DNA from: Conexibacter sp. CPCC 205762
GTDB taxonomy: Bacteria; Actinomycetota; Thermoleophilia; Solirubrobacterales; Solirubrobacteraceae
Direction: 5' to 3'
Length of the DNA stretch: 64,000 bases
NCBI RefSeq assembly: GCF_030646155.1
Contig: NZ_JAUTDN010000023.1
Location: forward strand, 1 to 64,000
In this document: piece by piece, positions 41,035 through 58,618 of the stretch
Layout of the letters: each line of letters begins with the position of its first letter
Position numbering within the stretch: position 1 is the first letter of the stretch
Translations under genes and position numbers: made by a program
The notes under the pieces: generated by a model
Told to the model about the DNA's origin: nothing
The model's database searches: none
What the model saw: the letters and a program-made list of their open reading frames with translations, nothing else

Positions 41035-42084
41035 GTGCTCGCGCTCGTCTACAGCGGAGCGGGGGCGCTCGCCGTCGAGACGACGGCGGCGCCCCTCCCG
41101 GATCCCGGCGAGGTGCGCGTGCGCGTCCACTCGTGCGGGATCTGCATGTCCGACGTCTACGGCGTCGCCGGCGTCAACGAGCGGCGCGACGCGGTCCTCG
41201 GCGCCGGCGAGACGCTCGTGATGGGCCACGAGGTCGTCGGCGTCGTCGACGACCTCGGCGCCGGCGTCGCGGGGGTCGCGCGCGGCGCGCTCGTCGCGGT
41301 CGACCCGATCTGCGGCTGCGGGCGCTGCGCCCGCTGCGCCGCCGGCGAGGAGAACGCCTGTGCGCGGCGGACGATCCGCGGCTGCGTGCCGGCCGCTCCC
41401 GGCGGCTACGCCGAGGCGCTCGCCGTGCCGGCGCGCAAGCTGCATCCGCTGCCGCCCGGCACCGCGCCGGAGCTGGGGGCGCTCGCCGAGCCGCTCGCGG
41501 TCGGCGCCCACGGCGTCGCGCTCGCCGACCCGCCGGCCGGCGGAGCGGCGCTGGTGATCGGCGGCGGGATCGTCGGGATCGGCGCGGCGCTGGCCGCGCG
41601 CCGCCGGCTCGGCGCCGGCGCCGAGATCGTCGTCGCCGAGCCGCGCGCGCACCGGCGCGCGCTCTGCGAGCAGCTCGGCCTCGTCGCCGCGACGCCGCAG
41701 CAGGCGCTCGCGCACGAGCAGCGCTTCGAGCTCGTGCTCGACTGCGTCGCGCGCCCGGAGACCTTCGCGGGCGCGGTCCGCGCCGCCCGCCGCGGCGGCG
41801 AGATCGTGCTCGTCGGGATCTGGCAGGACGAGATCCCGCTGCCGGTCAGCGAGGTCGTCGCGCGCGAGAGCCGGATCCGCGGCTCGTTCGGCTACACGCA
41901 CGCCGACTTCGCCGGCGTCGTCGCCTGGCTCGGCGACGGCGGCGGCCGCGACGAGCTGCTGGCGCTCGTCGAGCACCGCGTCGGCTTCGACGGCCTGATC
42001 GCCGCCCTGCGCGGCCACGCCGACGGCTCGCTGACGGCCGTGCGGACGCTCTTCCACCCCGACCTCGACCTGGAGCGCACGTGA
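41035..42084 (+). CDS. Zinc-dependent alcohol dehydrogenase (MDR family)
   Basis: This enzyme oxidises an alcohol with NAD(P). The 349-residue product has catalytic zinc ligands in CGICMSDVYG and GHEVVGVVDD, the four-Cys structural zinc loop CGCGRCARCAAGEENAC (~residues 83-99) and a GGGIVGIGAALAA Rossmann loop. GTG start at 41035, eighteen bases after the lipoprotein gene; the acyl-CoA dehydrogenase gene overlaps its stop. It would make the aldehyde or ketone that the SDRs and acyl-CoA ligase then use. Confidence 0.9.
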   Translation: MLALVYSGAGALAVETTAAPLPDPGEVRVRVHSCGICMSDVYGVAGVNERRDAVLGAGETLVMGHEVVGVVDDLGAGVAGVARGALVAVDPICGCGRCARCAAGEENACARRTIRGCVPAAPGGYAEALAVPARKLHPLPPGTAPELGALAEPLAVGAHGVALADPPAGGAALVIGGGIVGIGAALAARRRLGAGAEIVVAEPRAHRRALCEQLGLVAATPQQALAHEQRFELVLDCVARPETFAGAVRAARRGGEIVLVGIWQDEIPLPVSEVVARESRIRGSFGYTHADFAGVVAWLGDGGGRDELLALVEHRVGFDGLIAALRGHADGSLTAVRTLFHPDLDLERT

Positions 42085-43238
42085 ACTTCGACCTTCCCGA
42101 CGACGTCAGACAGCTCGTCGCCGTCGCGCGCGACTTCCGCGTGCAGGTGCTCGACCCGCTCGAGCCGGCCTTCCTCGCCGACGGCAACGTGCCGTGGCCG
42201 CTGCGGCCGAGACTGCAGCAGCAGGCGCGCGAGCGCGGCCTGTGGGCGATCGACGTGCCGCGCGAGCACGGCGGCCTCGGGTTCGGGCAGCTGGCCGTCT
42301 GCGCCGTCCACGAGGAGCTGAACAAGCACCCGATGATGTTCGAGGCCGGCGGCGCGCCCGAGCCGGTCCTCTACCACTGCGGCCCGCACCAGTGGGAGCG
42401 CTACTTCGCCGCGGTCGTCGCGGGCGAGCGGCGCAGCGCCTACGCCTTCACCGAGCCCGGCACCGGCTCCGACCTCGGCGCGATCGAGACGCGCGCGGTG
42501 CGCGACGGCGACGAGTGGGTGATCGACGGCAGCAAGCTGTTCATCGGCCTCGCCGAGCGGGTCGAGTTCCTGATCCTGTTCGCCGCGACCGACCCTGCCA
42601 GAGGCGCCCACGGCATCACCGTCTTCCTCGTCGACTCCGGCACGCCCGGCTACGAGGTCGTGCGCACGATCCCGACGATGGGCGACGCGTGGGAGCCGTG
42701 CGAGCTGCGCTTCGAGCAGTGCCGGATCCCCGACGCGCAGCGCCTGGGCCCGGTCGACGAGGGCTTCGCGACCGCCGACGAGCAGCTCAGCCACGGCCGC
42801 CTCAAGATCGCCTCCTACCAGCTCGGGATCGCGCAGCGCTGCCTCGACGAGGCGGTCGCGTGGGCGCGGCAGCGGACGACCTGGGGGCGGCCGATCGCCA
42901 GCCGCCAGGCGATCCAGTTCATGCTCGCCGACAGCGCCGTCGAGCTGGACGCGGCGCGGCTGCTGGTCTACCGCGCCGCCTGGCGCGCCGACCGCGGCGA
43001 GGACGTCCGCGTCGACGCCTTCAAGGCGAAGCTGTACGCGACCGAGATGGCGCAGCGCGTCAGCGACCGCTGCCTGCAGGTGCTCGGCGGGCGCGGCTAC
43101 GCGAGAGACTCGCCGCTGCAGAGCTTCTTCCGCCAGACGCGGCTGTGGCGGATCGGCCACGGCACCGCCGAGATCCACCGCTGGATGATCGCCCGCGACC
43201 TGCTCGGCGCGGCCGCCTCCGAAGGCGGCTCGCGATGA
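42081..43238 (+). CDS. Acyl-CoA dehydrogenase family protein, canonical catalytic Glu not found
   Basis: The 385-residue product has the FAD/substrate motifs AYAFTEPGTGSDLGAIETRA and the C-terminal helices of the family. At the MCAD catalytic site (YEGT) it reads GHGT, and at the isovaleryl-CoA dehydrogenase site (REAFG) it reads RTTWG, so the usual Glu base appears absent at both places. It may use another acid, accept an unusual substrate or do different flavin chemistry. GTG start overlapping the alcohol dehydrogenase stop. Its counterpart in the atu pathway is AtuD. Confidence 0.85.
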   Translation: MNFDLPDDVRQLVAVARDFRVQVLDPLEPAFLADGNVPWPLRPRLQQQARERGLWAIDVPREHGGLGFGQLAVCAVHEELNKHPMMFEAGGAPEPVLYHCGPHQWERYFAAVVAGERRSAYAFTEPGTGSDLGAIETRAVRDGDEWVIDGSKLFIGLAERVEFLILFAATDPARGAHGITVFLVDSGTPGYEVVRTIPTMGDAWEPCELRFEQCRIPDAQRLGPVDEGFATADEQLSHGRLKIASYQLGIAQRCLDEAVAWARQRTTWGRPIASRQAIQFMLADSAVELDAARLLVYRAAWRADRGEDVRVDAFKAKLYATEMAQRVSDRCLQVLGGRGYARDSPLQSFFRQTRLWRIGHGTAEIHRWMIARDLLGAAASEGGSR

Positions 43239-43990
43239 GCGCGGAGGGCGTGCTGGCGGGCAGAGCGGGCGTCGTCACCGGCGGCGCGCGCGGGCTCGGC
43301 CGCGCGATCGCGGAGGCGTTCGCCGCCGCCGGCGCGCGCGTCGCGATCGTCGACGTCGCGGGCGCGCAGGAGGCGGCCGCCGAGATCGGCGCCGGCGCGC
43401 TCGGGCTGACCGGCGACGTGACCGACCCCGACGGCGTCCGCGCCGCCTTCGCCGAGGTCGCGGAGCGGACCGGCCGCTTCGACTTCCTCGTCAACAACGC
43501 CGGCGTGCGCGTGCAGGCGCCGTTCCGCGACCATCCGCTCGACGCCTGGCGGCGGACGCTCGACGTCAACCTCACCGGCAGCTTCGTCTGCGCGCAGGCG
43601 GCGGTCGCGCTGATGCTCGCGCGGGGCGGCGGCCAGATCGTCAACCTCGCCTCGATCGCCGGCGCGATCTCGCTGCGCGACCGCGTCGCCTACAACGCCT
43701 CCAAGGGCGGCGTGATCGCGCTGACGCAGTCGATCGCCGCCGAGCTGTCCGCGCAGGGGATCCGCTGCAACGCGATCGCGCCGGGGATCGTCGAGACGCC
43801 GCTGAGCGCGCCCTACTTCCGCGACGCGCGGATGGTCGGCGCGATCACGTCGAACACGCCGCTGGGACGCTGGGGCCAGCCGCACGAGATCGCCGGGCCG
43901 GCGGTCTTCCTCTGCAGCCCGGCCGCCGCGTTCGTCCACGGGCAGACGCTGTTCGTCGACGGCGGCTGGACGGCGCACAAGGGCTACTGA
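43235..43990 (+). CDS. Short-chain dehydrogenase/reductase
   Basis: Classical SDR of 251 residues with TGGARGLGRAIAEAFA (residues 15-30), FLVNNAGVRV, catalytic Ser in LASIAGAIS and YNASKGG (YxxxK), and the C-terminal FLCSPAAAFVHGQTLFVDGG. The Asp in VAIVDVAG after beta-2 suggests NAD rather than NADP. The ATG overlaps the acyl-CoA dehydrogenase stop. It may oxidise a hydroxyacyl or terpenol-type intermediate. Confidence 0.9.
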   Translation: MSAEGVLAGRAGVVTGGARGLGRAIAEAFAAAGARVAIVDVAGAQEAAAEIGAGALGLTGDVTDPDGVRAAFAEVAERTGRFDFLVNNAGVRVQAPFRDHPLDAWRRTLDVNLTGSFVCAQAAVALMLARGGGQIVNLASIAGAISLRDRVAYNASKGGVIALTQSIAAELSAQGIRCNAIAPGIVETPLSAPYFRDARMVGAITSNTPLGRWGQPHEIAGPAVFLCSPAAAFVHGQTLFVDGGWTAHKGY

Positions 43991-44009
43991 GCAGGGACGG
44001 GAGAGAGCG

Positions 44010-44747
44010 ATGTTGGAGAGCGGATTGGGCGGGCGCGTCTGCCTCGTCACCGGCGCGGCGAACGGGATCGGCCGCGCCTGCGCGGAGCTGCTGGCCGGCG
44101 AGGGGGCGCGGCTGGCGCTGTGCGACCTCGACGGCGAGCGGCTGGAGGAGGTCGGCGGCGACGCGGCACTGCGGGTCGCGGCCGACCTCTCCAGACGGGC
44201 GCAGGTGACGCGGCTGCTGGCGGCGACGCGCGAGCGCTTCGGCCGCCTCGACGTGCTGATCCACTGCGCCGGGATCTACCGCGTCACGCCGCTGCCGCAG
44301 GTGACCGACGCCGAGTGGGACCAGCTGCTCGACGTCAACCTGCGCAGCGCCTTCCTGCTGGCGCAGGGGGCGGTCGAGCTGATGCGCGAGGGCGGCGACG
44401 GCCGGATCGTGCTGGTCGGCTCGTTCGCCGCCCGCACCGGCGGCCTGCGCGCGAGCGCGCCGTACGCGGCCTCGAAGGCCGGCGTCGAGGGGCTGACGCG
44501 CCACCTGGCGCAGTACGCCGGGCCGCTCGGCGTGCGCGTCAACTGCCTCCATCCCGGCTTCACCGAGACGCCGATGACGTCGATCCTCGGCGAGGAGGCG
44601 CGTGAGGAGGCGCTGCGGCGGACGCCGCTGCGGCGCCACTGCGGCCCGGCCGAGCAGGCGAGCATGGCGGTCGTGCTCGCCTCCGACCTCGCCGCCTTCG
44701 TCCACGGCGCGACGCTGGACGTCAACGGCGGGATGTACATGGCATGA
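44010..44747 (+). CDS. Short-chain dehydrogenase/reductase (second copy in the operon)
   Basis: The 245-residue SDR has VTGAANGIGRACAELLA, VLIHCAGIYRV, a catalytic region GSFAARTGGLRASAPYAASKAG and FVHGATLDVNGGMYMA. LCDLDGE after beta-2 indicates NAD preference. GGGACGGGAGAGAGCG precedes the ATG. It is only distantly similar to the SDR just upstream, so the two probably act on different steps. The ligase gene overlaps its stop. Confidence 0.9.
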   Translation: MLESGLGGRVCLVTGAANGIGRACAELLAGEGARLALCDLDGERLEEVGGDAALRVAADLSRRAQVTRLLAATRERFGRLDVLIHCAGIYRVTPLPQVTDAEWDQLLDVNLRSAFLLAQGAVELMREGGDGRIVLVGSFAARTGGLRASAPYAASKAGVEGLTRHLAQYAGPLGVRVNCLHPGFTETPMTSILGEEAREEALRRTPLRRHCGPAEQASMAVVLASDLAAFVHGATLDVNGGMYMA

Positions 44748-46342
44748 GCCGAGGAGACGAGGACGCGATGCTGCACCCGACCGGCGACCGCACGCTGACC
44801 GACCTGCTGCGCGAGCGCGCCGAGGCCGAGCCGGCGCGCACCTTCCTGACGTTCGAGAGCGCCGCCGGCGAGCTGGAGGAGCTGACCTACGCCGCCTTCG
44901 CCGCGCAGGTCGAGCGCTGCGCGCGCGGCTTCGCCGACCGCGGGATCGGCCACGGCGACGCCGTCGTCGTGCATCTGCGCAACTGCCCGCAGGTGCTGAT
45001 CGCGTGGTTCGCGCTGGCGCGGCTGGGCGCGGTCTTCGTGCCGGCCAACGTCGCCTCGACGGTCGCGGAGCTGGAGCACGTGCTGTCGTTCGCGCAGGCG
45101 CGGCTGGCGATCACCGAGCCCGGCCTGCTGGAGACCGCGGCCGGCGCGATCGCCGCCGGCGGCCGTCCGCTGCCGCTGCTGGTCGCGCGCGGGGAGGTCG
45201 CCGGGCAGGAGCGCTTCGAGGCGCTGCTGGAGGCGGCCGGGCCGCCGCCGGAGCCGGCGGCGCGGGCTGCCGACGTCGCCGAGCTGATCTTCACCTCCGG
45301 GACGACGCGCAAGCCGAAGGCGGTGATGCTGACGCACGCCAACTGCCTGCGCGCCGGCCTCGACGCCGTCCACTGCCTGTGGCTGCAGCCGGGCGAGCGC
45401 TGCCTGACCGCGCTGCCGCTGTTCCACGTCAACGGCCAGGCGATGTCGGTGCTGGCGGCGCTCACGACCGGCGGCACGCTGGTGCTGCTGGAGGAGTACC
45501 GCGCCTCGCGCTTCTGGGCGCAGGTGCGCGCCCACCGCGCGACGCAGACCTGCGTCGTCGCGATGCAGCTGCGGACGCTGCTGGCGCAGCCGCCGGACCC
45601 CGCCGACCGCGACCACGAGCTGCGGCGGCTGTTCTACGCGATCAACGTCGCCGACGAGGAGAAGGCCGCCTTCGAGCGCCGCTTCGGCGTCGAGCTGATC
45701 AACGGCTACGGCCTCTCGGAGGCGATGACGCTGCTGGCGGTCGCGCCGATCGCCGGCCCCCGCCGCTGGCCGTCGATCGGGCTGGCGTCGCCGGGCCGGC
45801 GGCTGCTGCTGCTCGACCCGCAGGGCGAGCCGGTCGCGCCCGGGGAGGTCGGCGAGATCGTCGCCGAGGGCACGCCCGGCCGCGACCTGATGCTCGGCTA
45901 CTACCGCGACCCGCAGGCGACCGCGGCCGCGCTGCGCGGCAACCGGCTGCACACCGGCGACAACGCCTGGGCCGACGAGGCCGGCTACCTGCACTTCTTC
46001 GACCGCAAGAAGGACATGATCAAGCGCGCCGGCGAGAACGTCTCGGCAATCGAGGTCGAGGGCGCGCTGGCGGCCCATCCCGGCGTCGCCGAGGCGGCCG
46101 TCGTCGGCGTGCCGGACGCGATCCGCGACGAGGCGGTCGCGGCGGTCGTCGTGCCGGTGGCGGGCAGCGGGCTGACGGCCGAGGAGGTCGTCGCGCACTG
46201 CCGCGAGCGGCTCTCGCGCTTCAAGGTGCCGACGGTCGTCGTCTTCGCGCAGGAGCTGCCGAAGACCTCGATCGGCAAGGTCCGCAAGGACGCGCTGCGC
46301 AGATCGCTGGCGGGCGATGGGGCCGGCGAGGCGGCGCGCTGA
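44744..46342 (+). CDS. AMP-dependent acyl-CoA ligase (CaiC-like)
   Basis: The 532-residue product activates a carboxylic acid to its CoA thioester. It has FTSGTTRKPKAVMLTHAN, YGLSEAMTLLAVAPI, the hinge TGDNAWADEAGYLHFFDRKK and the catalytic Lys region ELPKTSIGKVRKDALR. The sequence is nearest to crotonobetaine/carnitine-CoA ligase types. It ends the operon that begins at 37214 and is convergent with a TetR gene, 16 bases apart. Its atu counterpart would be AtuH. Confidence 0.9.
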   Translation: MSRGDEDAMLHPTGDRTLTDLLRERAEAEPARTFLTFESAAGELEELTYAAFAAQVERCARGFADRGIGHGDAVVVHLRNCPQVLIAWFALARLGAVFVPANVASTVAELEHVLSFAQARLAITEPGLLETAAGAIAAGGRPLPLLVARGEVAGQERFEALLEAAGPPPEPAARAADVAELIFTSGTTRKPKAVMLTHANCLRAGLDAVHCLWLQPGERCLTALPLFHVNGQAMSVLAALTTGGTLVLLEEYRASRFWAQVRAHRATQTCVVAMQLRTLLAQPPDPADRDHELRRLFYAINVADEEKAAFERRFGVELINGYGLSEAMTLLAVAPIAGPRRWPSIGLASPGRRLLLLDPQGEPVAPGEVGEIVAEGTPGRDLMLGYYRDPQATAAALRGNRLHTGDNAWADEAGYLHFFDRKKDMIKRAGENVSAIEVEGALAAHPGVAEAAVVGVPDAIRDEAVAAVVVPVAGSGLTAEEVVAHCRERLSRFKVPTVVVFAQELPKTSIGKVRKDALRRSLAGDGAGEAAR

Positions 46343-46358
46343 CGGCGGGCCGCGCGCC

Positions 46359-46970
46359 TCAGCGCACTTCGAGGCCGCGCAGCGCGACCGTCGCGAAGGT
46401 GTCGGCGACCGCGTCGGCGCTGAGCGGCCCGTCCGGCTGGAACCAGGTGTAGCCCCAGTTGGCCATCGCCAGCACCGCCTTCGTCGCGATCGCCGGGTCG
46501 ACCGCGACGAAGTCGCCGGCGGCGCTGCCCTCGGCGACGATCCGCGTGACCATCTGCTCGTAGAAGTCGCGCTTGACGACGAGCGCGTTCCAGCGCTCGC
46601 CGCTGACGGCGCTGCGCTCCTGCAGGAAGACGGTGACGCCGTCGCGGTGGCGCGCGACGAAGCCGAGCGCGACGCGCAGCGCGCCGCGCAGCTTGTCGGC
46701 CGGCCGCTCGGAGGTCGAGACGACCGCCAGCGTCTCCTCGATCAGCTCGTCGATCAGCTGCTCGTGGATCGCGAAGAGGAGGTCCTCCTTCTTGCGCACG
46801 TGGTGGTAGAGGCTCGGCTTGCGCATCCCGAGCGCGTCGGCGATCTCGCTCATCGAGGCGGCGTGGTAGCCGCGCTCGCTGAAGATCCGCGTCGCCGCTT
46901 CGATGATGTCCGGGCGGACTCTCGGCGGCGCGCTCTCGGATGGCGGCGGGGTCGGGGCGGTGCGGGACAC
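46359..46970 (-). CDS. TetR-family regulator controlling the E1/lipoyl operon
   Basis: The product has an N-terminal HTH (DIIEAATRIFSERGYHAASM then SEIADALGMRKPSLYHHVRK) and an all-helical ligand domain. The start is taken at GTG 46970, giving 203 residues. Two near-identical 14-bp operators lie just upstream, flanking the promoter of the divergent operon, so it probably represses both itself and that operon until an acyl-CoA or acid ligand binds. Confidence 0.9.
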   Translation of the reverse strand: MSRTAPTPPPSESAPPRVRPDIIEAATRIFSERGYHAASMSEIADALGMRKPSLYHHVRKKEDLLFAIHEQLIDELIEETLAVVSTSERPADKLRGALRVALGFVARHRDGVTVFLQERSAVSGERWNALVVKRDFYEQMVTRIVAEGSAAGDFVAVDPAIATKAVLAMANWGYTWFQPDGPLSADAVADTFATVALRGLEVR

Positions 46971-46999
46971 GTCGGCAAGCCTATCGCCTCCCGGCAGAT

Positions 47000-47013
47000 C
47001 GACCGGTCGGTAG
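47000..47013. promoter_or_regulatory. TetR operator 1
   Basis: CGACCGGTCGGTAG here is the reverse complement of operator 2 at 13 of 14 positions. It lies six bases upstream of the -35 box of the E1-alpha promoter and 30 bases before the TetR start. Confidence 0.7.
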
Positions 47014-47018
47014 GGAGC

Positions 47019-47047
47019 TTGCCTTGTGATGGCGTTAAGGCTAGGCT
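47019..47047 (+). promoter_or_regulatory. Promoter of the E1-alpha/E1-beta/lipoyl operon
   Basis: TTGCCT (47019-47024) and TAGGCT (47042-47047) are 17 bases apart. The predicted start is near 47054, inside operator 2, which suits repression by the divergent TetR protein. Confidence 0.55.
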
Positions 47048-47050
47048 GGC

Positions 47051-47064
47051 CTACCGACCGGTAG
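47051..47064. promoter_or_regulatory. TetR operator 2
   Basis: CTACCGACCGGTAG is an imperfect palindrome (CTACCG-N2-CGGTAG) covering the predicted transcription start of the E1-alpha operon. It matches operator 1 in inverted orientation, 51 bases apart start to start. Confidence 0.7.
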
Positions 47065-47099
47065 GACGGTTGGTTCGCTGTCGGAGAGAGAGGAAACGG

Positions 47100-48077
47100 A
47101 TGCCGGAGGTCCACGTCCCAGTGGCCCGCGGGGACGGCGCGCTGCGCACCGCCGCCGGGCGCTACCGCCTGATGCGGCTGAGCCGCCGCTTCGAGGAGAC
47201 GGTCCATGACCAGCACGGGGAGGGCCAGGTGCCCGGCCCGCTGCACCTGTCGATCGGCCAGGAGGCGGTCGCGGTCGGCGCCTGCGCCGAGCTGCGCCGC
47301 AGCGACGCCGTGCTGTCGACCCACCGCGGCCACCACCACTGCCTCGCCAAGGGCGCGCGCGCCGATCGGCTGATGGCCGAGCTGCTCGGGCGCGAGAGCG
47401 GCTACTCGCGCGGCCGCGGCGGCTCGATGCACGTCGCGATCCCGTCGATCGGCCTGCTCGGCACGAACGGGATCGTCGGCGCCGGCCTGCCGATCGCGAC
47501 CGGCGCCGCCTACGCGATGCAGGCGCAGGACCGCGACGACGTGACCGTCGCCTTCTTCGGCGAGGGCGCGACCGGGACCGGCGCCTTCGGCGAGGCCGTC
47601 AACATCGCGGCGCTGTGGGCGCTGCCGCTCGTCTTCGTCTGCGAGAACAACCAGTACGTCGAGCTGACGCCGCAGGACGTCCACGTCGCCGGTGAGATCT
47701 GGCGCCGCGGCGAGTCGCACGGGATCCCCGGCGTGCGCGTCGACGGCAACGACGTCGAGGCCGTCCGCGAGGCCGCCGCGACCGCGATCGCGCGGGCGCG
47801 CGGCGGCGGCGGGCCGACGCTGATCGAGGCCGTCACCTACCGCTGGTTCGGTCACTACGCGGGCGACCGCGCCGCCTACCGCGACTCGCGCGAGGTCGAC
47901 AGCTGGCGCGCCCGCGACCCGCTCGTCGCCGCGCGCGCCGCGCTCGACGACGCCGAGGCCGATGCGCTCGACGCCGAGGTCGAGCGCGAGATCGCCGATG
48001 CGCTCGCGTTCGCGCAGCGCAGCGCCGTCACCGGCCCCGGCGCGCTCGCGATCGACCACCTGAAGGAGACGGCATGA
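47100..48077 (+). CDS. 2-oxoacid dehydrogenase E1 component, alpha subunit
   Basis: E1 uses thiamine diphosphate to decarboxylate a 2-oxoacid (or split acetoin) and loads the acyl group on a lipoyl domain. The 325-residue product has HLSIGQEAVAVGACAEL, GRGGSMHV and the ThDP motif GEGATGTGAFGEAVNIAALW ending VCENNQY (GDG read as GEG, then NN). The phosphorylation-loop region RWFGHYAGD is present. GAGAGAGAGGAAACGG precedes the ATG. The type resembles AcoA/PdhA; substrate open. Confidence 0.92.
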   Translation: MPEVHVPVARGDGALRTAAGRYRLMRLSRRFEETVHDQHGEGQVPGPLHLSIGQEAVAVGACAELRRSDAVLSTHRGHHHCLAKGARADRLMAELLGRESGYSRGRGGSMHVAIPSIGLLGTNGIVGAGLPIATGAAYAMQAQDRDDVTVAFFGEGATGTGAFGEAVNIAALWALPLVFVCENNQYVELTPQDVHVAGEIWRRGESHGIPGVRVDGNDVEAVREAAATAIARARGGGGPTLIEAVTYRWFGHYAGDRAAYRDSREVDSWRARDPLVAARAALDDAEADALDAEVEREIADALAFAQRSAVTGPGALAIDHLKETA

Positions 48078-49072: not shown

Positions 49073-49311
49073 GCGCGATGGCGATCGAGGTCGTCGTCCC
49101 CGATCCGGGCGACCACGAGGAGTTCGACGTCGTCGAGATCATGGTCGAGGTCGGCGAGCGGGTCGAGGCCGGCGACGCGCTGCTGGAGATCTCGACCGAC
49201 AAGGCGAACATGGACGTCGAGGCGCCGGCCGCCGGGACCGTCGCGGAGGTGCGCGTCAGCGAGGGCGACACCGTCCCCGTGACGACCGTCCTGATGGTGC
49301 TCGAGCCATGA
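49069..49311 (+). CDS. Free-standing lipoyl-domain protein
   Basis: The 80-residue product is one lipoyl domain: VVVPDPGDHEEFDVVEIMVE, the lipoylated Lys45 in STDKANMDVEAPA (numbered from the GTG at 49069) and a symmetrical second half ending VLMVLEP. There is no peripheral-subunit-binding or acyltransferase domain and no E3 gene nearby, so it is not a normal E2. It could carry the acyl group from this E1 to an enzyme encoded elsewhere. ATG at 49078 is an alternative start. It overlaps E1-beta (GTGA) and MmgE/PrpD (ATGA). Confidence 0.9.
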   Translation: MSAMAIEVVVPDPGDHEEFDVVEIMVEVGERVEAGDALLEISTDKANMDVEAPAAGTVAEVRVSEGDTVPVTTVLMVLEP

Positions 49312-51685: not shown

Positions 51686-51696
51686 GTTGCCGGGCG

Positions 51697-52368
51697 CTAC
51701 GGCGTCGCGCCGCGCGGCGCGACGCCGGGCGCGACGATCCCGCCGCCGATCAGCGCCGTGACGTGGTCGCTGTAGGACTCGACCAGCTCCGCGTCCAGGG
51801 TCGCGCCGAAGCCGCGCTCCAGCAGCGGGCGGGCGGAGAAGAGGAACTCGCAGAGGCCGACGACGGAGAAGAAGAAGAGCGTCGGGTCGAGCTCGCGCCA
51901 GCCCTCCTCGGCGCGGCCCTCGGTGAGCAGCTCGGCGTACCAGTCGCGCGCCGGCAGCGCGAAGCTGCGCGCGATCGCCTCGACGGCGTCGGGCTCGGCG
52001 GCCAGCAGGCGCTCGCCCATCAGGCGGTTGACGTAGGGGTAGCGCAGGTAGTTGCGGACGATCCCGGCGACGTGGCGGCGCAGCTTCTCCGACGGCGGGA
52101 TCGCCAGCGCGGCGAGCCGCTCGATCTCGTCCGAGAGCCCTTCGAGCACGCGCTCCAGCAGCGCGTCGAGCAGGCCGTCCTTGGAGCCGAAGCAGTACTT
52201 CACCATCGCGACGTTGACCTCGGCGCGGGCGCAGATCTCGCTCACGGAGGCGATCTGCCCGGCGCGGTCGAGCAGCAGCTCGTGCGCCGCCTGCAGCAGC
52301 TTCTCGCCAGTCGCCTCTGCGCTGCCGCGGGGCATGCGCGGCATCTTCGCAGGTCGCTTCCTTGACAT
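51697..52368 (-). CDS. TetR-family regulator of the AtuA/carboxylase operon
   Basis: The 223-residue product has the HTH (EKLLQAAHELLLDRAGQIAS then VSEICARAEVNVAMVKYCFG) and a helical ligand domain with SFALPARDWYAELLTEGR. The ATG at 52368 overlaps the -35 region of the divergent promoter; a TTG one codon upstream is also in frame. Position and divergence match AtuR, the TetR repressor of the Pseudomonas atu genes, although direct homology was not tested. Confidence 0.9.
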   Translation of the reverse strand: MSRKRPAKMPRMPRGSAEATGEKLLQAAHELLLDRAGQIASVSEICARAEVNVAMVKYCFGSKDGLLDALLERVLEGLSDEIERLAALAIPPSEKLRRHVAGIVRNYLRYPYVNRLMGERLLAAEPDAVEAIARSFALPARDWYAELLTEGRAEEGWRELDPTLFFFSVVGLCEFLFSARPLLERGFGATLDAELVESYSDHVTALIGGGIVAPGVAPRGATP

Positions 52369-52390
52369 CAACTAAACGCTTATTTAGTGT
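52362..52390 (+). promoter_or_regulatory. Promoter of the AtuA/carboxylase operon
   Basis: TTGACA (52362-52367, perfect consensus) and TAGTGT (52385-52390) are exactly 17 bases apart. The predicted start (~52397) falls at the ATG at 52399, suggesting a leaderless mRNA. Confidence 0.75.
52371..52388. promoter_or_regulatory. Inverted repeat ACTAAA-N6-TTTAGT, likely TetR operator
   Basis: Perfect 6-bp arms separated by CGCTTA fill the spacer and -10 box of the divergent promoter and begin three bases from the TetR start codon. A dimer bound here would block both genes. Confidence 0.7.
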
Positions 52391-52398
52391 CGCTGGGC

Positions 52399-54231
52399 AT
52401 GAGAGAGACCGTCCGCCTCGGCTGCTGGGCAGCCTTCTGGGGCGATACCAGCGCTGCCGTCGACCAGCTGCTCGACGGCGCCGACGTCGACTATCTCGTC
52501 GCCGACTACCTGTCCGAGATCACGATGGCGCTGCTCGCCCGCGCCCGCGCGAAGGATCCCGAGGCCGGCTACGTGCCCGACGCGGTCCGCGTGCTGGCGC
52601 CGCGGCTGGCGGAGATCAAGGCGCGCGGCATCCGCATCGTCACCAACGCCGGCGCGCTCAACCCCAGCGCCTGCGCGCACGCCTTCCGCGAGGCGGCGGC
52701 CGCGGCCGGCGTCGAGCTGCGCGTCGCCGCCGTCGAGGGCGACGACCTCTCGCCGCGGGGCGAGGAGCTGCTCGCCGGCGCGGCGCGCGACATGTTCACC
52801 GGCGAGCCGCTGCCGGGCCGCCCGATGACGATCAACGCCTACCTCGGCGCGCGCCCGATCGCCGCCGCGCTCGACGCCGGCGCCGACGTCGTCGTGACCG
52901 GCCGCGCGGTCGACTCGGCGGTCGTGCTGGGCCCGCTGATGCACGAGTTCGGCTGGGCCGACGACGACTACGACCTGCTCTCGGCCGGCACGCTCGCCGG
53001 CCACGTCGTCGAGTGCGGGCCGCAGTGCACCGGCGGCAACTTCACCGACTGGGACGAGGTCCCCGGCTGGGACGAGATGGGCTTCCCGGTGATCGAGGTC
53101 CGCGCCGACGGCAGCGCCGTCGTCAGCAAGCCGGCCAACACCGGCGGGCTCGTCTCGCCCGCGACCGTCGGCGAGCAGATCGTCTACGAGATCGGCGACC
53201 CCGGCGCCTACGTGATGCCCGACGTCGTCTGCGACTGGCGCGAGGTGACGCTGGAGCAGGTCGGGATCGACCGCGTCCGCGTCGCCGGCGCGCGCGGCAG
53301 CAGACCGCCGGCGACGTACAAGGTCACAGCCACCCACGCCGACGGCTTCCGCGTGATGGCGACGGCGATGTTCAGCGGCCTCGACGCCGCCGGCAAGGCG
53401 CGCCGCGCCGGCCAGGCGCTCGTCGCGCGCACCGAGCGGCTGATCGCGGCGGCCGGCCACGGCCCGCTGACGGAGACGTCGGTCGAGGTGATCGGCGCCG
53501 GCGACACGCACGGGCCCGATCACCGCGACGACAGCGCGACCGAGGCGGTCGTGAAGATAGCCGCGCGCCACCCCGAGAAGGCGGCGCTGGAGCAGTTCGC
53601 GCTGGAGTACGCGCCGATGGCGCTGGTCGCGCAGGGGATGACCGGCTTCTTCGGCGGCCGCCCGCGCCCGGCGCCGGCGATCTCCGTCTACCACCTGCTG
53701 CTCGACAAGGCGAGCACGCCGGTGCGGGTCCAGCTCGACGACGACGAGCCGTTCGCGGTCGCGATCGCCGCGGGCGATCCGGAGCTGCAGATCGGCACGC
53801 CCGCATTGCGGGACGGCGACGCACGCCTCTCGCTGACCGACGGCGGCGTGACCGTCCCGCTGCGGCGGCTGGCGTGGGCGCGCAGCGGCGACAAGGGCGA
53901 CCAGGCGAACATCGGCGTGATCGCGCGCCGGCCCGAGTTCCTCGCGCCGATCCGCGAGCAGCTGACCTGCGCCCGCGTCGGCGACCGCTTCGCGCAGTAC
54001 CTGACCGGCGGCGTGCGGCGCTGGGAGCTGCCGGGCCTGCACGCGCTCAACTTCGTGCTCGACGGCGCGCTCGGCGGCAAGGGCGGGACCTCGACGCTGC
54101 GCTTCGACCCGCAGGGCAAGAGCTTCGCCGCGATGCTGCTGGAGCTGCCGATCGCCGTCCCGGCCGAGTGGGACCGCGACGGGCGCCTGACGCGCGGCGC
54201 CGCGGCGGCGCCGGCGCGAGCCGCGCGATGA
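52399..54231 (+). CDS. AtuA-like protein (DUF1446, acyclic terpene utilisation family)
   Basis: The 610-residue product has RLGCWAAFWGDTSAAVDQLL near the start, GIRIVTNAGALNPSACA, TGRAVDSAVVLGPLMHEFGW and a C-terminal ~100-residue AtuA-like domain (PLRRLAWARSGDKGDQANIG). AtuA is needed for citronellol/geraniol growth in Pseudomonas, but its reaction is not firmly known. The ATG at 52399 is chosen because the promoter places the transcript start there. It is followed, with an ATGA overlap, by carboxylase genes, as in atu clusters. Confidence 0.9.
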   Translation: MRETVRLGCWAAFWGDTSAAVDQLLDGADVDYLVADYLSEITMALLARARAKDPEAGYVPDAVRVLAPRLAEIKARGIRIVTNAGALNPSACAHAFREAAAAAGVELRVAAVEGDDLSPRGEELLAGAARDMFTGEPLPGRPMTINAYLGARPIAAALDAGADVVVTGRAVDSAVVLGPLMHEFGWADDDYDLLSAGTLAGHVVECGPQCTGGNFTDWDEVPGWDEMGFPVIEVRADGSAVVSKPANTGGLVSPATVGEQIVYEIGDPGAYVMPDVVCDWREVTLEQVGIDRVRVAGARGSRPPATYKVTATHADGFRVMATAMFSGLDAAGKARRAGQALVARTERLIAAAGHGPLTETSVEVIGAGDTHGPDHRDDSATEAVVKIAARHPEKAALEQFALEYAPMALVAQGMTGFFGGRPRPAPAISVYHLLLDKASTPVRVQLDDDEPFAVAIAAGDPELQIGTPALRDGDARLSLTDGGVTVPLRRLAWARSGDKGDQANIGVIARRPEFLAPIREQLTCARVGDRFAQYLTGGVRRWELPGLHALNFVLDGALGGKGGTSTLRFDPQGKSFAAMLLELPIAVPAEWDRDGRLTRGAAAAPARAAR

Positions 54232-55706
54232 GCCTCCCGCAGAAGGTGCTGGTCGCCAACCGCGGCGAGATCGCGGTGCGGATCGTCGCGACGCTGCGGC
54301 GGCTCGGGATCGCCAGCGTCGCCGTCTACCACGCCGAGGACGCCGGCGGGCGGGCGGTGCGCGAGGCCGACGAGGCGGTGCAGCTGTTCGGCGAGACGCC
54401 GGTCGGCGCCTACCTCGACGGCGCCGCGATCGTCGCCGCCTGCGAGGCGACCGGCGCGACCGCCGTCCATCCCGGCTTCGGCTTCCTGTCGGAGAACGCC
54501 GACTTCGCCGAGCGGCTGGCCGCGGCCGGGATCGTCTTCGTCGGCCCGCCGCCGGCGGCGATCCGCGCGATGGGCGACAAGATCGAGAGCAAGCGGATCG
54601 CGCAGGAGGCCGGCGTGCCGACGCTGCCGGGCTCCGACGGCGCCGTCGAGACGGCCGCGGAGGCGACCGCGATCGCCGCCGAGATCGGCTTCCCCGTGCT
54701 GCTGAAGGCGAGCGCCGGCGGCGGCGGGAAGGGGATGCGGATCGCGCGCGACGCGGCCGACTGCGCGGAGGCGTTCGAGCGCGCCTCCAGCGAGGCGCTC
54801 GCGAGCTTCGGCGACGGCCGCGTCTTCGTCGAGCGCTACATCGAGCGCCCGCGCCACATCGAGGTGCAGGTGCTGGCCGACGGCCACGGCGCCGTCGTCC
54901 ACCTCGGCGAGCGCGAGTGCTCGATCCAGCGCCGCTACCAGAAGGTCGTGGAGGAGTGCCCGTCGCCGTTCGTCGACGCCGCCACGCGCGCCGAGATGGG
55001 CCGCACGGCGATCGCGCTCGCGCGCGCCGTCGACTACCGCTCCGCCGGCACCGTCGAGCTGATCGTCGACGAGCAGCGGCGCTTCTACTTCCTCGAGATG
55101 AACACACGCCTGCAGGTCGAGCATCCCGTCACCGAGCTGGTGACCGGGATCGACATCGTCGAGCAGCAGCTGCGCGTCGCCGCCGGCGAGCCGCTCGCGT
55201 TCGACCAGCAGCAGGTCCGCTTCGACGGCCACGCGATCGAGTGCCGCGTCTACGCCGAGGACGCCGACGCCGGCTTCGTGCCGGCGACCGGACCGCTGGC
55301 GCTCGTGCGCTTCCCGGCCGGCGAGGGGATCCGCGTCGACCACGGCGTCGTCGAGGGGCAGGAGGTCAGCTCCGCGTTCGATCCGATGATCGCCAAGCTC
55401 GCCGTCCACGCGCCGACGCGCGCGGAGGCGATCGCGCGCGGCCGCGCGGCGCTGCGCGAGACGGTCCTGCTCGGCACGATCACCAACACCGCCTTCCTCG
55501 AACGGGTGCTGGCGCAGCCGGCGTTCGCCGCGGGGGAGACCCACACCGGCTTCATCGACGAGCACGCCGCGGCGCTGCGGTCGCCCGCGCCGAGCGCCGA
55601 GCAGGAGCGCTGCCTGGCGGCCGCGGCGGCGCTCGCGAGCCCGCGCTTCGACCGCCGCCACGCCGTCCCCGAGCCGCTCGCGGCGATCGGCGCGTGGAGC
55701 AGCTGA
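54228..55706 (+). CDS. Biotin carboxylase subunit of an acyl-CoA carboxylase
   Basis: This subunit carboxylates biotin using ATP and bicarbonate. The 492-residue product has VLVANRGEIAVRIV, GFGFLSENADFAERL, the ATP-grasp loop KASAGGGGKGMRIA, IEVQVLADGHGAVVHLGERE and EMNTRLQVEHPVTE (catalytic Glu, Asn, Arg). It ends after the BC domain, so, unlike AtuF and AccA3 types, the carrier domain is on the next gene. ATG overlaps the AtuA-like stop. Confidence 0.93.
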   Translation: MSLPQKVLVANRGEIAVRIVATLRRLGIASVAVYHAEDAGGRAVREADEAVQLFGETPVGAYLDGAAIVAACEATGATAVHPGFGFLSENADFAERLAAAGIVFVGPPPAAIRAMGDKIESKRIAQEAGVPTLPGSDGAVETAAEATAIAAEIGFPVLLKASAGGGGKGMRIARDAADCAEAFERASSEALASFGDGRVFVERYIERPRHIEVQVLADGHGAVVHLGERECSIQRRYQKVVEECPSPFVDAATRAEMGRTAIALARAVDYRSAGTVELIVDEQRRFYFLEMNTRLQVEHPVTELVTGIDIVEQQLRVAAGEPLAFDQQQVRFDGHAIECRVYAEDADAGFVPATGPLALVRFPAGEGIRVDHGVVEGQEVSSAFDPMIAKLAVHAPTRAEAIARGRAALRETVLLGTITNTAFLERVLAQPAFAAGETHTGFIDEHAAALRSPAPSAEQERCLAAAAALASPRFDRRHAVPEPLAAIGAWSS

Positions 55707-56227
55707 TGGCGGCCTGCGAGATCGCGCTGGAGGGCGGCGGCACGCACACCGCGACGCTCGCGCAGCTCGGCGCGCGCACGGCGGTGCGGCTCGACGGCGT
55801 CGACCGCCCGGCCGCGCTGACGCGCGCCGGCGACGGGTACGAGCTGCGGCTGGAGGATCGCGTCGAGCGCGTCTGGGTCGCGGTCATCGGCGATGTCGTC
55901 CACGTCCACGCCTTCGGGCGCGCCTGGACGCTGACGGTGATCGACCCGGTCGAGCGCGCCCGCGGCGGCGGCCCCTCCGAGGAGCTGGCGACGGCGCCGA
56001 TGCCGGGCGCGGTGATCGCGGTCGCGGTCAGCGCCGGCGACGCCGTCGCGCAGGGCCAGCGGCTGCTGGTGATCGAGAGCATGAAGATGCAGAACGAGAT
56101 CGTCGCCGCGCGCGACGGCGTCGTCGAGCGGGTGCACGTCGAGGTCGGCGAGACCTTCGACCGCGGCGCCCCGCTCGTCGCGCTCGCGCCGCTCGCAGAC
56201 GACGACGGCGACGGAGACGAGGACTGA
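55706..56227 (+). CDS. Biotin carboxyl carrier protein of the acyl-CoA carboxylase
   Basis: The 173-residue product has a ~95-residue N-terminal part resembling the BC-CT linker (BT) domain, then a biotinyl domain (~102-163) with ATAPMPGAVIAVAV and the target Lys127 in ESMKMQNEI (SMKM instead of the usual AMKM). An acidic tail ends it. It begins inside the BC stop (TGATG), so it looks like the split-off C-terminal half of a normal alpha subunit. Confidence 0.9.
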   Translation: MAACEIALEGGGTHTATLAQLGARTAVRLDGVDRPAALTRAGDGYELRLEDRVERVWVAVIGDVVHVHAFGRAWTLTVIDPVERARGGGPSEELATAPMPGAVIAVAVSAGDAVAQGQRLLVIESMKMQNEIVAARDGVVERVHVEVGETFDRGAPLVALAPLADDDGDGDED

Positions 56228-57825
56228 TGCAGCGGCTGGAGACCCACGTCGACACGACCTCGCCGACGTACAAGGCCTATCGCGAGCACAACCTCGCGCT
56301 CGCCGCCGAGCTGCGCGAGACGCTGCACGCGGCCCGCCACGTCCGCCCCCAGCGGGCGCTCGACCGGCTCGCCGAGCAGCAGAAGCTGACCGTGCGCCAG
56401 CGGCTGGAGCTGCTGCTGGACCCCGGCGCGCCGTTCCTGGAGCTGATGTCGCTGGCCGCCAACCGCCACTACGACGGTGAGGCGCCGCAGGCGCTGCTGG
56501 TGACCGGCATCGGCGTCGTCAACGGCCGCGAGGTCGTCGTGATCGCCAACGACTCGTCGCTGAAGGGCGGCGCCTGGTACCCGATCACGACGCGCAAGAT
56601 CGTGCGCGCGCTGACGGTCGCGCGCGAGAACCGCCTGCCGGTCGTGCACATGCTCGACAGCGGCGGCGCCAACCTCCACCTGCAGGACGAGATCTACGCG
56701 ACCGCCGGGCACATCTTCAAGCAGCAGTGCCAGCTCAGCGCCGCCGGGATCCCGCAGCTGGCGGTCGTCTTCGGCTACTGCACCGCCGGCGCGGCCTACA
56801 CGCCGACGCTCTGCGACCAGACGATCATGGTGCGCGAACGGGGCGCGATCTTCCTCGCCGGCCCGCCGCTGGTGAAGGCCGCGACCGGCGAGGAGGTCAG
56901 CACGGAGGAGCTGGGCGGCGCCGACATGCACACGCAGGTCTCCGGCGTCGCCGACTACGCCGTCGACAGCGAGGCCGAGGCGCTCGCGCTCGCGCGCGAC
57001 ATCGTCGGCGTGTGGGCGCGGCGCGAGAAGGCCGACAGCGACCGCCGCGCGCCCGAGCCGCCGTTCCACGACCCGGCCGAGCTGTACGGGATCGTCCCCG
57101 ACGACGTCAAGAAGCAGTTCGAGATGCGCGAGGTGATCGGGCGGATCGTCGACGGCAGCCGCTTCCACGAGTTCAAGCCGCACTACGGCGAGACGCTCGT
57201 GACCGGCTGGGCGTTCATCTGGGGCTTCAAGGTCGGGATCCTCGCCAACGACGGCGTGATCTTCAGCGAGGCCGCCAACAAGGCGACGCAGTTCATGCAG
57301 CTGTGCGACCGCGACGGCATCCCGCTGCTGTTCCTGCACAACGTCACCGGCTTCATGGTCGGGCGCGACTACGAGCGCGGCGGGATCACCAAGCACGGCG
57401 CGAAGATGCTGATGGTCCAGGCGAACGTGACCGTCCCGAAGCTGTCGGTCCTCTGCCATGCCTCCCAAGGCGCCGGCAACTACGCGATGGCAGGCCGCAC
57501 GTGGGACCCGCGCTTCGTCTACGCGTGGCCCAACTCGCGCTCCTCGATCATGGGCCCCGAGCAGGCCGCCGACACGCTCACGCAGGTGCGCGTCGCCGGC
57601 CTCAGACGCCGCGGCGAGGAGCCCTCGCCCGACGAGATCAACGCGATCAAGCGCGACGTCACCGCCTACTTCGAGCAGACCTACCACTCGTACTACCTCA
57701 CCTCCGACCTGCGCGACGACGGCCTGATCGACCCGACCGACACGCGCAACGTGCTCGGCATGTCGCTGTCGGCGGCGCTCAACGCCCCGATCGTGCGCGC
57801 GCCCGGCGGCGTGCTGCGGATCTGA
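56227..57825 (+). CDS. Acyl-CoA carboxylase carboxyltransferase subunit (AtuC/MccB-like)
   Basis: The 532-residue product transfers CO2 from biotin to an acyl-CoA. It has VHMLDSGGANLHLQDE, GYCTAGAAYTPTLCDQ (oxyanion and CoA site), RGAIFLAGPPLVKAATGEEV and GRTWDPRFVYAWPNSRSSIM. The pattern is that of methylcrotonyl-CoA and geranyl-CoA carboxylase beta subunits rather than propionyl-CoA carboxylase. Which acyl-CoA is used cannot be decided by eye. ATG overlaps the carrier stop. Confidence 0.92.
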   Translation: MQRLETHVDTTSPTYKAYREHNLALAAELRETLHAARHVRPQRALDRLAEQQKLTVRQRLELLLDPGAPFLELMSLAANRHYDGEAPQALLVTGIGVVNGREVVVIANDSSLKGGAWYPITTRKIVRALTVARENRLPVVHMLDSGGANLHLQDEIYATAGHIFKQQCQLSAAGIPQLAVVFGYCTAGAAYTPTLCDQTIMVRERGAIFLAGPPLVKAATGEEVSTEELGGADMHTQVSGVADYAVDSEAEALALARDIVGVWARREKADSDRRAPEPPFHDPAELYGIVPDDVKKQFEMREVIGRIVDGSRFHEFKPHYGETLVTGWAFIWGFKVGILANDGVIFSEAANKATQFMQLCDRDGIPLLFLHNVTGFMVGRDYERGGITKHGAKMLMVQANVTVPKLSVLCHASQGAGNYAMAGRTWDPRFVYAWPNSRSSIMGPEQAADTLTQVRVAGLRRRGEEPSPDEINAIKRDVTAYFEQTYHSYYLTSDLRDDGLIDPTDTRNVLGMSLSAALNAPIVRAPGGVLRI

Positions 57826-57850
57826 CCCTCTCTCGACGAAGGAGAACGCT

Positions 57851-58618
57851 GTGAACGACGTGGTGACCTACGAGGTCTCCGACGACGCGGTCGCCTGGCT
57901 GACGATCGACCGCGAGGAGGCCCGCAACGCGCTCTCGCAGGCCGTCCGCGACGGCCTCTGGGCCGGCTTCCGCCGCTTCGCCGCCGACGACGACGCGGCC
58001 GTGCTGGTGCTGACCGGCGCGGGCGAGAAGGCCTTCTGCGCCGGCGGCGACCTGAAGGAGATGTCGCAGAACGCGATGCAGGTGCCGCCGCCCGACTTCC
58101 TGCCGTACCTGCAGCGGACCGTCAGAACCGACAAGCCGGTGATCGCCGCCGTCAACGGCGTCGCCTTCGCCGGCGGCTTCCTGCTCGCGCAGATGTGCGA
58201 CCTCGTGATCGCCGCCGAGCACGCGACGTTCGGCATCACCGAGGTCAGAGTCGGCCGCGGCTCGCCGTGGGCGGCGCCGCTGCCGTGGCTGGTCGGGCCG
58301 CGTGCGGCGATGGAGATCATGCTGACCGGCGCGCCGCTGAGCGCCGCGCGCGCCTACGAGCTGGGCCTCGTCAACCGCGTCGTCCCGGCGGCCGAGCTGC
58401 GCGCGCAGGCGCAGCAGCTCGCGGCCGGGATCGCCGCCAACGCGCCGCTGTCGGTGCGGGCGGCGAAGCAGCTCGTCTACCTCTCCGCCGAGCACGGCTG
58501 GTCGGCCGCGCTGGACGCGGCCGACGAGCTGTACGAGCCGGTCTACCTCAGCGACGACGCGCAGGAGGGACCGCGCGCCTTCAAGGAGAAGCGGGCTCCG
58601 CGCTGGACGGGGCGCTGA
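57851..58618 (+). CDS. Enoyl-CoA hydratase/isomerase family protein (AtuE-like position)
   Basis: The 255-residue crotonase has GEKAFCAGGDLKEM (oxyanion hole), AFAGGFLLAQMCDLVIA and FGITEVRVGRGSPWAAPLPW, where the acidic residue at the first catalytic position is kept (ITE). GTG start at 57851 with AAGGAGA upstream. It ends the AtuA/carboxylase operon and overlaps the convergent acyl-CoA synthetase gene by 38 bases. In atu clusters the hydratase follows the carboxylase step. Confidence 0.92.
   Translation: MNDVVTYEVSDDAVAWLTIDREEARNALSQAVRDGLWAGFRRFAADDDAAVLVLTGAGEKAFCAGGDLKEMSQNAMQVPPPDFLPYLQRTVRTDKPVIAAVNGVAFAGGFLLAQMCDLVIAAEHATFGITEVRVGRGSPWAAPLPWLVGPRAAMEIMLTGAPLSAARAYELGLVNRVVPAAELRAQAQQLAAGIAANAPLSVRAAKQLVYLSAEHGWSAALDAADELYEPVYLSDDAQEGPRAFKEKRAPRWTGR

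Follow-up and report, generated by a model that had tools for sequence, protein, structure and literature searches.

A conserved, operator-marked gene block around an atu-like carboxylation module in Conexibacter sp. CPCC 205762

Results

Gene content of the block

The DNA analysed here (the window, 64,000 nucleotides) corresponds to bases 1-64000 of contig C35 of the soil bacterium Conexibacter sp. CPCC 205762 (Solirubrobacterales), whose 6.1-Mb genome is assembled in 116 contigs. It contains an atu-like carboxylation module, i.e. genes for AtuA, a biotin carboxylase (BC), a biotin carboxyl carrier protein (BCCP), a carboxyltransferase (CT) and an enoyl-CoA hydratase (ECH), inside a wider set of catabolic genes. 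An earlier note, made from the sequence alone, had described positions 41035-58618 as a rearranged atu cluster with extra modules. When genes were called from codon-position GC, open reading frames (ORFs) and Pfam/NCBIfam matches, all components named in it were recovered, including the counterparts of the atu genes for AtuA, carboxylase, hydratase, acyl-CoA dehydrogenase (ACAD), short-chain dehydrogenases/reductases (SDRs) and acyl-CoA ligase. These genes are real, but the limits drawn around them are not those of the unit, which starts with a CUT2 importer at 37214, crosses the window end and reaches about 79 kb on contig C35, a span of about 40 kb; the right-hand limit is not fixed, and the contig ends at 84,320.

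At the left end, the palindromic operator ATTAGCGGTAGCGCTAGTAGC (37097-37117, plus strand, 0 mismatches) precedes an importer operon on the plus strand that encodes a CUT2-type ABC permease (37214-38284; PF02653; 65-82% identity in the relatives G004, G062 and G053), an ATPase with two ABC domains (38281-39786; PF00005 in two stretches; AraG/RbsA-like below cut-off) and a substrate-binding protein (39814-41016; PF13407) whose remote PDB matches are sugar-type binding proteins. On the same strand follow a Zn-dependent alcohol dehydrogenase that the earlier note left unnamed (41035-42084; PF08240, PF00107), an acyl-CoA dehydrogenase (42081-43238; PF00441/PF02770; no NCBIfam model above its cut-off), SDR1 (43235-43990, in ORF 42194-43990) and SDR2 (44010-44747), both matching PF13561, and acyl-CoA ligase 1 (44744-46342; PF00501), which matches acyl-CoA synthetases in PDB and, below cut-off, a crotonobetaine/carnitine ligase-like NCBIfam model.

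The gene for TetR regulator 1 (46359-46970, minus strand; PF00440, PF17932; presumed GTG start) is divergent from that for the E1 alpha subunit of a 2-oxoacid dehydrogenase, and the palindrome CCTACCGACCGGTAGG (47050-47065), to which similar dyads exist in G004, G001, G062 and G053, is a candidate TetR1 operator. E1 alpha (47100-48077; PF00676; PDB matches to pyruvate dehydrogenase E1 alpha) was called within ORF 46317-48077; a fused E1 spanning this ORF was rejected, as the codon-position plot and Pfam split it into TetR1 on the minus strand and E1 alpha. Then come E1 beta (48074-49072; PF02779/PF02780), an 80-aa lipoyl-domain protein with the motif TDKAN (49069-49311; PF00364), an MmgE/PrpD family protein (49308-50705; PF03972; PDB relatives cis-aconitate decarboxylase and IDS-epimerase) and a DUF7065/Rv3169-family protein (50702-51685; PF23213; NF053593 at 41 bits, below the cut-off of 150), all on the plus strand. 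ORF 50773-52365, which is out of frame and has no Pfam match, was rejected as a gene. Thus, where the earlier note had a single TetR gene and a single E1 protein, there are two TetR genes, both on the minus strand, and an E1 alpha/beta pair.

TetR regulator 2 (51697-52344, minus strand; PF00440, PF14514; presumed start) is encoded divergently from AtuA, with the inverted repeat CTAAACGCTTATTTAG (52372-52387) between the two genes; the repeat is matched exactly in this genome only, and similar sequences occur in six relatives. AtuA (52399-54231, plus strand) has an AtuA domain (PF07287, E = 3.9e-140) and an AtuA ferredoxin-like domain (PF23544); conserved starts suggest that it begins at ATG 52399 rather than GTG 52387. 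The module continues on the plus strand with BC (54228-55706; PF02786, PF00289, PF02785 and NCBIfam; ORF 52362-55706), BCCP with the motif ESMKM (55706-56227; PF00364), CT (56227-57825; PF01039) and ECH (57851-58618; PF00378). Beyond it lie acyl-CoA ligase 2 (58581-60275, minus strand, presumed start; PF00501, run on 58581-60272), a second operator copy (60335-60355, plus strand, 1 mismatch, at the same place in six relatives) and plus-strand genes for the alpha subunit (60387-61298; PF01144) and the putative beta subunit (61301-62086) of a CoA-transferase-family pair and for a carboxymuconolactone-decarboxylase-family (CMD) protein (62083-62727; PF02627). Past the window, Pfam identified an APH-family kinase (C35 71550-72608) and a response regulator (C35 78768-79436). 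By gene orientation, the block comprises at least five transcription units, one of them the AtuA-BC-BCCP-CT-ECH set, instead of the three operons proposed earlier.

Conservation among relatives

The proteins of the window served as queries against stretches from ten relatives that were picked by AtuA match. The gene order is kept at 51-92% protein identity in G004, G001, G062 and G053, i.e. nearly the same order in a Conexibacter relative (G004) and in two other genera, so that the set of components is not a chance assembly. The common order is importer, Zn-dependent alcohol dehydrogenase, ACAD, SDRs, ligase 1, TetR1, E1 alpha, E1 beta, lipoyl protein, PrpD, (DUF7065), TetR2, AtuA, BC, BCCP, CT, ECH, ligase 2, CoA-transferase alpha and beta, and (CMD). 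Departures are few: the G001 stretch ends within the alcohol dehydrogenase, leaving the importer out of view, and an SDR2 match is not listed there; ACAD and SDR1 matches are not listed at the corresponding place of G062; G053 is without DUF7065 and has no CMD match listed at the block. G081 and G061, represented by short contigs, hold the part of the block that these contigs can accommodate, within the same identity range, and the full block is absent from the G046, G036, G016 and G025 stretches. What had been called extra modules is indeed present; however, most of it belongs to the block shared by the relatives, with DUF7065 missing in G053. No description of this cluster was found in the open-access literature searched.

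Downstream, this genome, G004, G062 and G053 share ligase 3, a quinone-oxidoreductase-like gene, a second ACAD, ECH and a luciferase-like gene, followed by the APH kinase, ligase 4, HyuA, HyuB and the response regulator. In this genome, the ligase 3/quinone-oxidoreductase pair (C35 64303-67124; L050 4304-7125) has the opposite order and orientation to that in G004, G062 and G053. In G004, ECH and ligase 2 are separated by an insert of about 9 kb within the block (L033-L034; 23.9-33.4 kb in joined coordinates). It encodes a further CUT2 importer together with SDRs and, by reading, an alcohol dehydrogenase. The HyuA/HyuB pair at the block end (C35 74278-78644; L050 14279-18645) is possibly a ketone carboxylase; HyuB gives a weak match to acetone carboxylase gamma in Pfam (22.8 bits, cut-off 21).

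A shared operator

Comparison of promoters with those of the relatives revealed one and the same dyad ahead of the importer and between the ligase 2 and CoA-transferase genes. The pattern, built from the sites of the window and six relatives, matched the window twice, against 0.03 matches expected. Across the whole genome, it matched five places at ≤2 mismatches and three at ≤1 mismatch (C35 37097, 60335 and 72615); all three of the latter are in the block, and the one at 72615 was not a training site. The ten relatives contain 15 places at ≤1 mismatch, all in the six block-bearing genomes (11 on the block contig and four on other contigs of the fragmented assemblies G081 and G001), with none in the four genomes without the full block (G046, G036, G016 and G025). 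A matrix scan gave, for the 54 kb surrounding the block in this genome, 7 sites (0.45 expected), 9 in 37 kb in G062 (0.1 expected) and 4 in 37 kb in G046, which holds the AtuA-to-ECH module only (0.45 expected), and no sites in the stretches of G036, G016 and G025. Training sites account for 3 of the 7 in this genome and 15 of the 40 over eight genomes, so that 25 of the 40 are non-training sites.

The response regulator is present in the stretches of this genome, G004, G062 and G053, and in G046 at 52%; it is not listed in the G036, G016 and G025 stretches nor in the cut-off contig of G001. In this genome, a histidine-kinase gene follows it. The response regulator is most likely the protein that binds the operator, and the block is probably under joint control.

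The carboxyltransferase represents a third clade

Selectivity among γ-carboxylases of this kind has been related to Phe191 in the beta subunit of methylcrotonyl-CoA carboxylase (MCC) versus Gly162 in that of geranyl-CoA carboxylase (GCC), a position that selects between bulky and small acyl groups, MCC having a 3-residue insertion just ahead of Phe191 (PMC4673880, from the part of the text available). The earlier note had proposed a comparison of the acyl-pocket residue; aligned by the human MCC and GCC chains, the window CT has Ala160 at the selectivity position and no insertion. Alanine is small, yet it is not the Gly of GCC. In a tree of 28 sequences (30 ORFs minus 6 duplicates and 2 distant paralogues, plus five PDB chains and the second CT of G062; two further CT pieces were excluded as too short), the window CT falls in a third clade of 13 sequences (support 100/99), whereas both the MCC clade (n = 7, support 91/97) and the GCC clade (n = 6, support 98/96; including 5ikl and Alcanivorax AtuC-like proteins) exclude it. 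A FastTree of the same set minus the second CT of G062 had the same outcome. The tree program warned that the placement of the G016 and G036 rows with GCC may be a long-branch effect. In all 13 members of the third clade, the MCC Phe is absent. By pairwise identity, the window CT is at 50.6% to the MCC beta subunit of P. aeruginosa and at 42.5% to GCC. By tree and alignment, it is neither AtuC nor LiuB.

The tree rows had been drawn from AtuA loci, and the CT was therefore searched alone. It was detected in 12 of the 151 relatives at E ≤1e-180, of which 11 also have AtuA, nine of them on one contig with the CT; in the twelfth, G073, the CT starts at base 7 of its contig. AtuA has a wider spread (17 of 151 at E ≤1e-50). 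The genome encodes another CT, on contig C42, that is MCC-like, with both the Phe and the insertion, and has BC, HMG-CoA lyase and acyl-CoA dehydrogenase genes as neighbours. Thus, the finding that would have refuted the earlier note, a CT that groups with MCC and is linked to leucine-degradation partners, was not made: HMG-CoA lyase accompanies a separate MCC-type carboxylase, and the window CT stands apart from MCC.

AtuA as a candidate lyase

Although a search of PDB with the single AtuA sequence gave no match, a profile of 31 AtuA proteins matched one sequence (9erq/9evf, E = 6.5e-9), which is named in PDB as AtuA family protein/citramalate lyase subunit A. The predicted AtuA model, with a predicted local distance difference test (pLDDT) score of 89.3, has 9evf, a citramalate lyase structure with ADP and pyruvate, as its best match (E = 2.9e-23; template modelling (TM) score 0.75 by target, 0.58 by query); the match after it is at 2e-3. 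In the alignment of the AtuA consensus with subunit A, 60 of 223 aligned positions are equal. Because the likeness holds for both profile and predicted fold, AtuA is probably an acetate-releasing lyase. This link was seen in the PDB names and was not found in the literature searched. We take DUF1446 to be the former name of the AtuA domain. A DUF1446 gene of unassigned function occurs in a methylaspartate cluster in which the fate of citramalate is unclear, as far as the accessible part of PMC4682846 goes; this fits the link between AtuA and citramalate. The same source gives pyruvate and acetate as the products of citramalate lyase. AtuA is listed as an acetate lyase among enzymes 'characterized or tentatively identified' in the portion seen of PMC4847356, and citramalate lyase performs the same kind of step in removing a two-carbon acid from a tertiary carbinol.

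Eight HMGL-family proteins of this genome were compared with 37 AtuA loci (flanks ≤10 kb) and with the stretches of eight relatives. The three queries that read as HMG-CoA-lyase-like had no match at any of the 37 AtuA loci and matched only contigs C42 and C60 of this genome; the two that read as isopropylmalate-type synthases matched L076, L077 and L079 at 22-27%. None of the ten HMGL-family places in the genome is on C35, and one is on C42 beside the MCC-like CT.

DUF7065 and the APH kinase

The DUF7065 protein, called CrtC-like in the earlier note, has its nearest fold relative elsewhere: the top five Foldseek matches of its model (5 sequences, pLDDT 78.7) are 25-phosphosteroid lyase (E = 5e-11 to 2.4e-10, TM about 0.6, 15-17% identity). 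In Sterolibacterium, a kinase phosphorylates a tertiary alcohol and a lyase removes the phosphate, the lyase gene being still unknown or putative in the parts of PMC8449060 and PMC11061730 available. On this model, we propose that DUF7065 may be a phospho-lyase.

In G062, a second DUF7065 gene adjoins a further APH gene (L155 8541-16735), ahead of an MCC-type carboxylase and HMG-CoA lyase; the full run is ligase 4-like, small protein, DUF7065, APH, ECH, MCC alpha, MCC beta, ECH and HMG-CoA lyase, and its CT is on the MCC side of the tree. Since this locus is of the MCC/HMG-CoA lyase type, a similar DUF7065-APH front end appears to be combined with two different carboxylase/lyase back ends. The position of the L155 pair ahead of these genes suggests an ATP-dependent entry into the leucine-type pathway. 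DUF7065 was detected at E ≤1e-15 in at least 5 of 399 sampled genomes of the class, with up to five candidates scored per listed genome. Rv3168 is presumably APH-like. According to the part of PMC5340868 seen, Rv3168-Rv3169 form an operon.

The lipoyl protein and the CoA-transferase pair

A gene for the E2 catalytic domain directly follows the lipoyl gene in G062, and the domain is also found in G053 (L055), L087 and L056, but not in the G004 and G001 stretches; in the window, there is no room for it because the PrpD gene starts before the lipoyl gene ends. Thus, by comparison with relatives that keep the E2 domain, the protein described earlier as a lone lipoyl protein is left over from a split E2 that has lost this domain. 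Other E2 proteins are encoded in the genome, so the lipoyl protein may work with one of these; alternatively, it may be in the course of being lost.

For the CoA-transferase alpha subunit, the closest solved relative is 6con_A (E = 6.7e-33), followed by 6co6 and 6coj and then by 1poi and 5mzw (60336-61298 was used both here and for Pfam); glutaconate CoA-transferase-type chains are also matched. We take 6con and 6co6, listed in PDB as CoA-transferase alpha subunits, to be IpdA. The beta gene has no Pfam or NCBIfam match; by position and reading of the sequence, it is a putative IpdB-like subunit and a conserved partner of alpha.

Other features of the contig

The left end of the window (1-14700), which is of lower GC, carries genes for ribosomal proteins, SecY, adenylate kinase, RNA polymerase alpha and DNA ligase (Pfam); a prophage assignment of this region (1-14.7 kb) was dropped, these genes being found instead. 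The S17 domain there begins at residue 116 of a 189-aa ORF, indicating a mis-set start or an N-terminal extension. At 27437-29506, a 689-aa protein has ten RTX calcium-binding repeat stretches.

Discussion

The block resembles the Pseudomonas atu cluster (AtuA-H, AtuR) in having AtuA, a biotin-dependent γ-carboxylase, a crotonase, an acyl-CoA dehydrogenase, SDRs and a ligase, and in a TetR gene that diverges from atuA; in the window, an inverted repeat lies between the two. It differs in that the window CT is of another clade and BC and BCCP, the two parts of the alpha subunit, have a gene each, whereas in AtuF they are fused in one chain. The block is also far larger, adding an importer, a 2-oxoacid dehydrogenase, PrpD, DUF7065, a CoA-transferase pair, a kinase and a two-component regulator. 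Thus, the description of the locus as a rearranged atu cluster is not supported; the atu-like module is set within a larger, operator-marked block. Sites of AtuR are known from the title of a reference within PMC4847356, and a Thauera protein listed there at 705 aa fits a one-chain AtuF, in the part of that source available.

At the level of sequence, the block appears as a conserved unit with its own operator, a CT of distinct clade and pocket residue, and recognisable relatives of AtuA and DUF7065. It probably represents a variant of atu-type carboxylative catabolism that is akin to the terpene and leucine pathways already described but separate from both. We estimate about an even chance that the block serves to take up and oxidise a soluble isoprenoid-type acid with methyl branches by the following route, for which we infer the reaction order, the tertiary nature of the hydroxyl, the substrate class and what the ring-type enzymes do. 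The substrate would be taken up by the CUT2 importer, oxidised by the alcohol dehydrogenase and SDRs and activated with CoA. A hindered hydroxyl would be removed through phosphorylation by the APH kinase and elimination of phosphate by DUF7065, yielding a beta-methyl enoyl-CoA, whose gamma-methyl group would be carboxylated by BC-BCCP-CT. The product would be hydrated by ECH and cleaved by AtuA into acetate and a 3-oxoacyl-CoA, and HMG-CoA lyase would for this reason not be needed. Leftover rings or chains may be processed by the IpdAB-like pair, the acyl-CoA dehydrogenases and the 2-oxoacid dehydrogenase. More tentatively, and with clearly lower confidence, this might amount to a complete, undescribed aerobic route for tertiary-alcohol isoprenoid acids, combining kinase and phospho-lyase, a third-family γ-carboxylase and AtuA in place of HMG-CoA lyase.

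Several observations weigh against this proposal. CUT2 importers usually carry sugars or polyols and are odd for an isoprenoid. The likeness of AtuA to 9evf is at the level of profile and predicted fold, not of the ADP- and pyruvate-binding residues, and other HMG-CoA-lyase-like genes in the genome could act in trans. The DUF7065 model was built from just 5 sequences, with TM about 0.6 and a root-mean-square deviation of about 7 to the lyase, and kievitone hydratase, Diels-Alderases and AttH are also among its fold neighbours, at 5e-9 and weaker. G053 (92% complete) has the block and two APH matches, yet no DUF7065 genome-wide. One member of the third CT clade, L061, does have the 3-residue insertion. 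As to the operator, hits on training sites are not independent because the pattern was built from those sites; at ≤2 mismatches, a backward-read control exceeds the pattern (58 vs. 5 places in this genome, and likewise in all ten relatives), for which reason the two-mismatch hits were not counted.

An alternative close to the earlier note is that the locus encodes the plain acyclic-terpene (citronellol/geraniol) atu pathway in a rearranged order. The counterparts of AtuA, carboxylase, hydratase, acyl-CoA dehydrogenase, SDRs and ligase would all be accounted for; however, the CT is outside the GCC clade with 5ikl and the Alcanivorax AtuC-like proteins, two relatives, G016 and G036, have GCC-side CTs at their AtuA loci (possibly a long-branch join), and the greater part of the block is not known to act in that pathway, so we regard this explanation as improbable. 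Degradation of leucine or isovalerate (Liu-type) draws on the higher identity of the CT to MCC beta of P. aeruginosa than to GCC, but it was dropped, being hardly credible when the CT is excluded from the MCC clade and lacks both Phe and insertion, and HMG-CoA lyase sits beside the MCC-like CT on C42. Independent operons that happen to be adjacent, as the several transcription units and the three kinds of candidate operators might indicate, would hardly show nearly the same order in three genera or one operator at distant promoters, and we consider this very improbable.

Two further explanations concern the IpdAB-like pair, the kinase and DUF7065. The IpdAB-like pair and the phospho-lyase could act on ring or side-chain intermediates of a steroid-like or other polycyclic pathway, given that the CoA-transferase alpha subunit finds its best PDB relatives in what we take to be IpdA-type chains, and that the fold of DUF7065 resembles 25-phosphosteroid lyase. 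Against this, glutaconate CoA-transferase-type chains are matched as well, no steroid ring-opening enzyme is among the annotated proteins (no dedicated search was made), and the importer is of the CUT2 type and not Mce, the importer expected of a steroid pathway; we therefore consider this rather unlikely. Somewhat less unlikely, but still doubtful, is that the APH kinase and an acyl-CoA dehydrogenase act together on 4-hydroxyacyl-CoAs in the manner of LvaA/LvaC and ACAD10/11, DUF7065 having another role. Elimination of phosphate by such a kinase plus ACAD is described in the available part of PMC11342911, an acyl-CoA dehydrogenase is encoded close to the kinase in the block, and G053 keeps the kinase without DUF7065. 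However, DUF7065 and APH are direct neighbours at the second locus of G062, and the Rv3168-Rv3169 operon (PMC5340868, in the part seen) is relevant as the relative of DUF7065 is named the Rv3169 family, albeit with the match below the NCBIfam cut-off.

The proposed route for a methyl-branched, isoprenoid-type acid thus has partial parallels in several known systems. AtuA shares its family profile and predicted fold with citramalate lyase subunit A (CmlA, 9erq/9evf), from which it differs in having a further, ferredoxin-like domain at its C terminus and, presumably, a CoA ester as substrate. With the 25-hydroxysteroid kinase/25-phosphosteroid lyase of Sterolibacterium denitrificans, the block shares the lyase fold and a phosphotransferase-type kinase, the latter likened by family only; host and substrate differ, and the lyase identity is the low one given above. 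The CoA-transferase pair belongs by sequence to the family of IpdAB, the actinobacterial steroid ring hydrolase, and of AibAB, with a different context and a likeness at the level of family, not of catalytic residues. An APH-type kinase near an acyl-CoA dehydrogenase is common to the block, the levulinate system LvaA-LvaC and ACAD10/11, whereas the block has DUF7065 as a candidate phosphate-eliminating partner. Taken on these terms, the block yields three testable claims: that a third clade of γ-carboxylases exists with a pocket unlike those of MCC and GCC, that AtuA has a lyase role, and that a kinase/phospho-lyase pair may be a general means of removing hindered hydroxyls before carboxylation.

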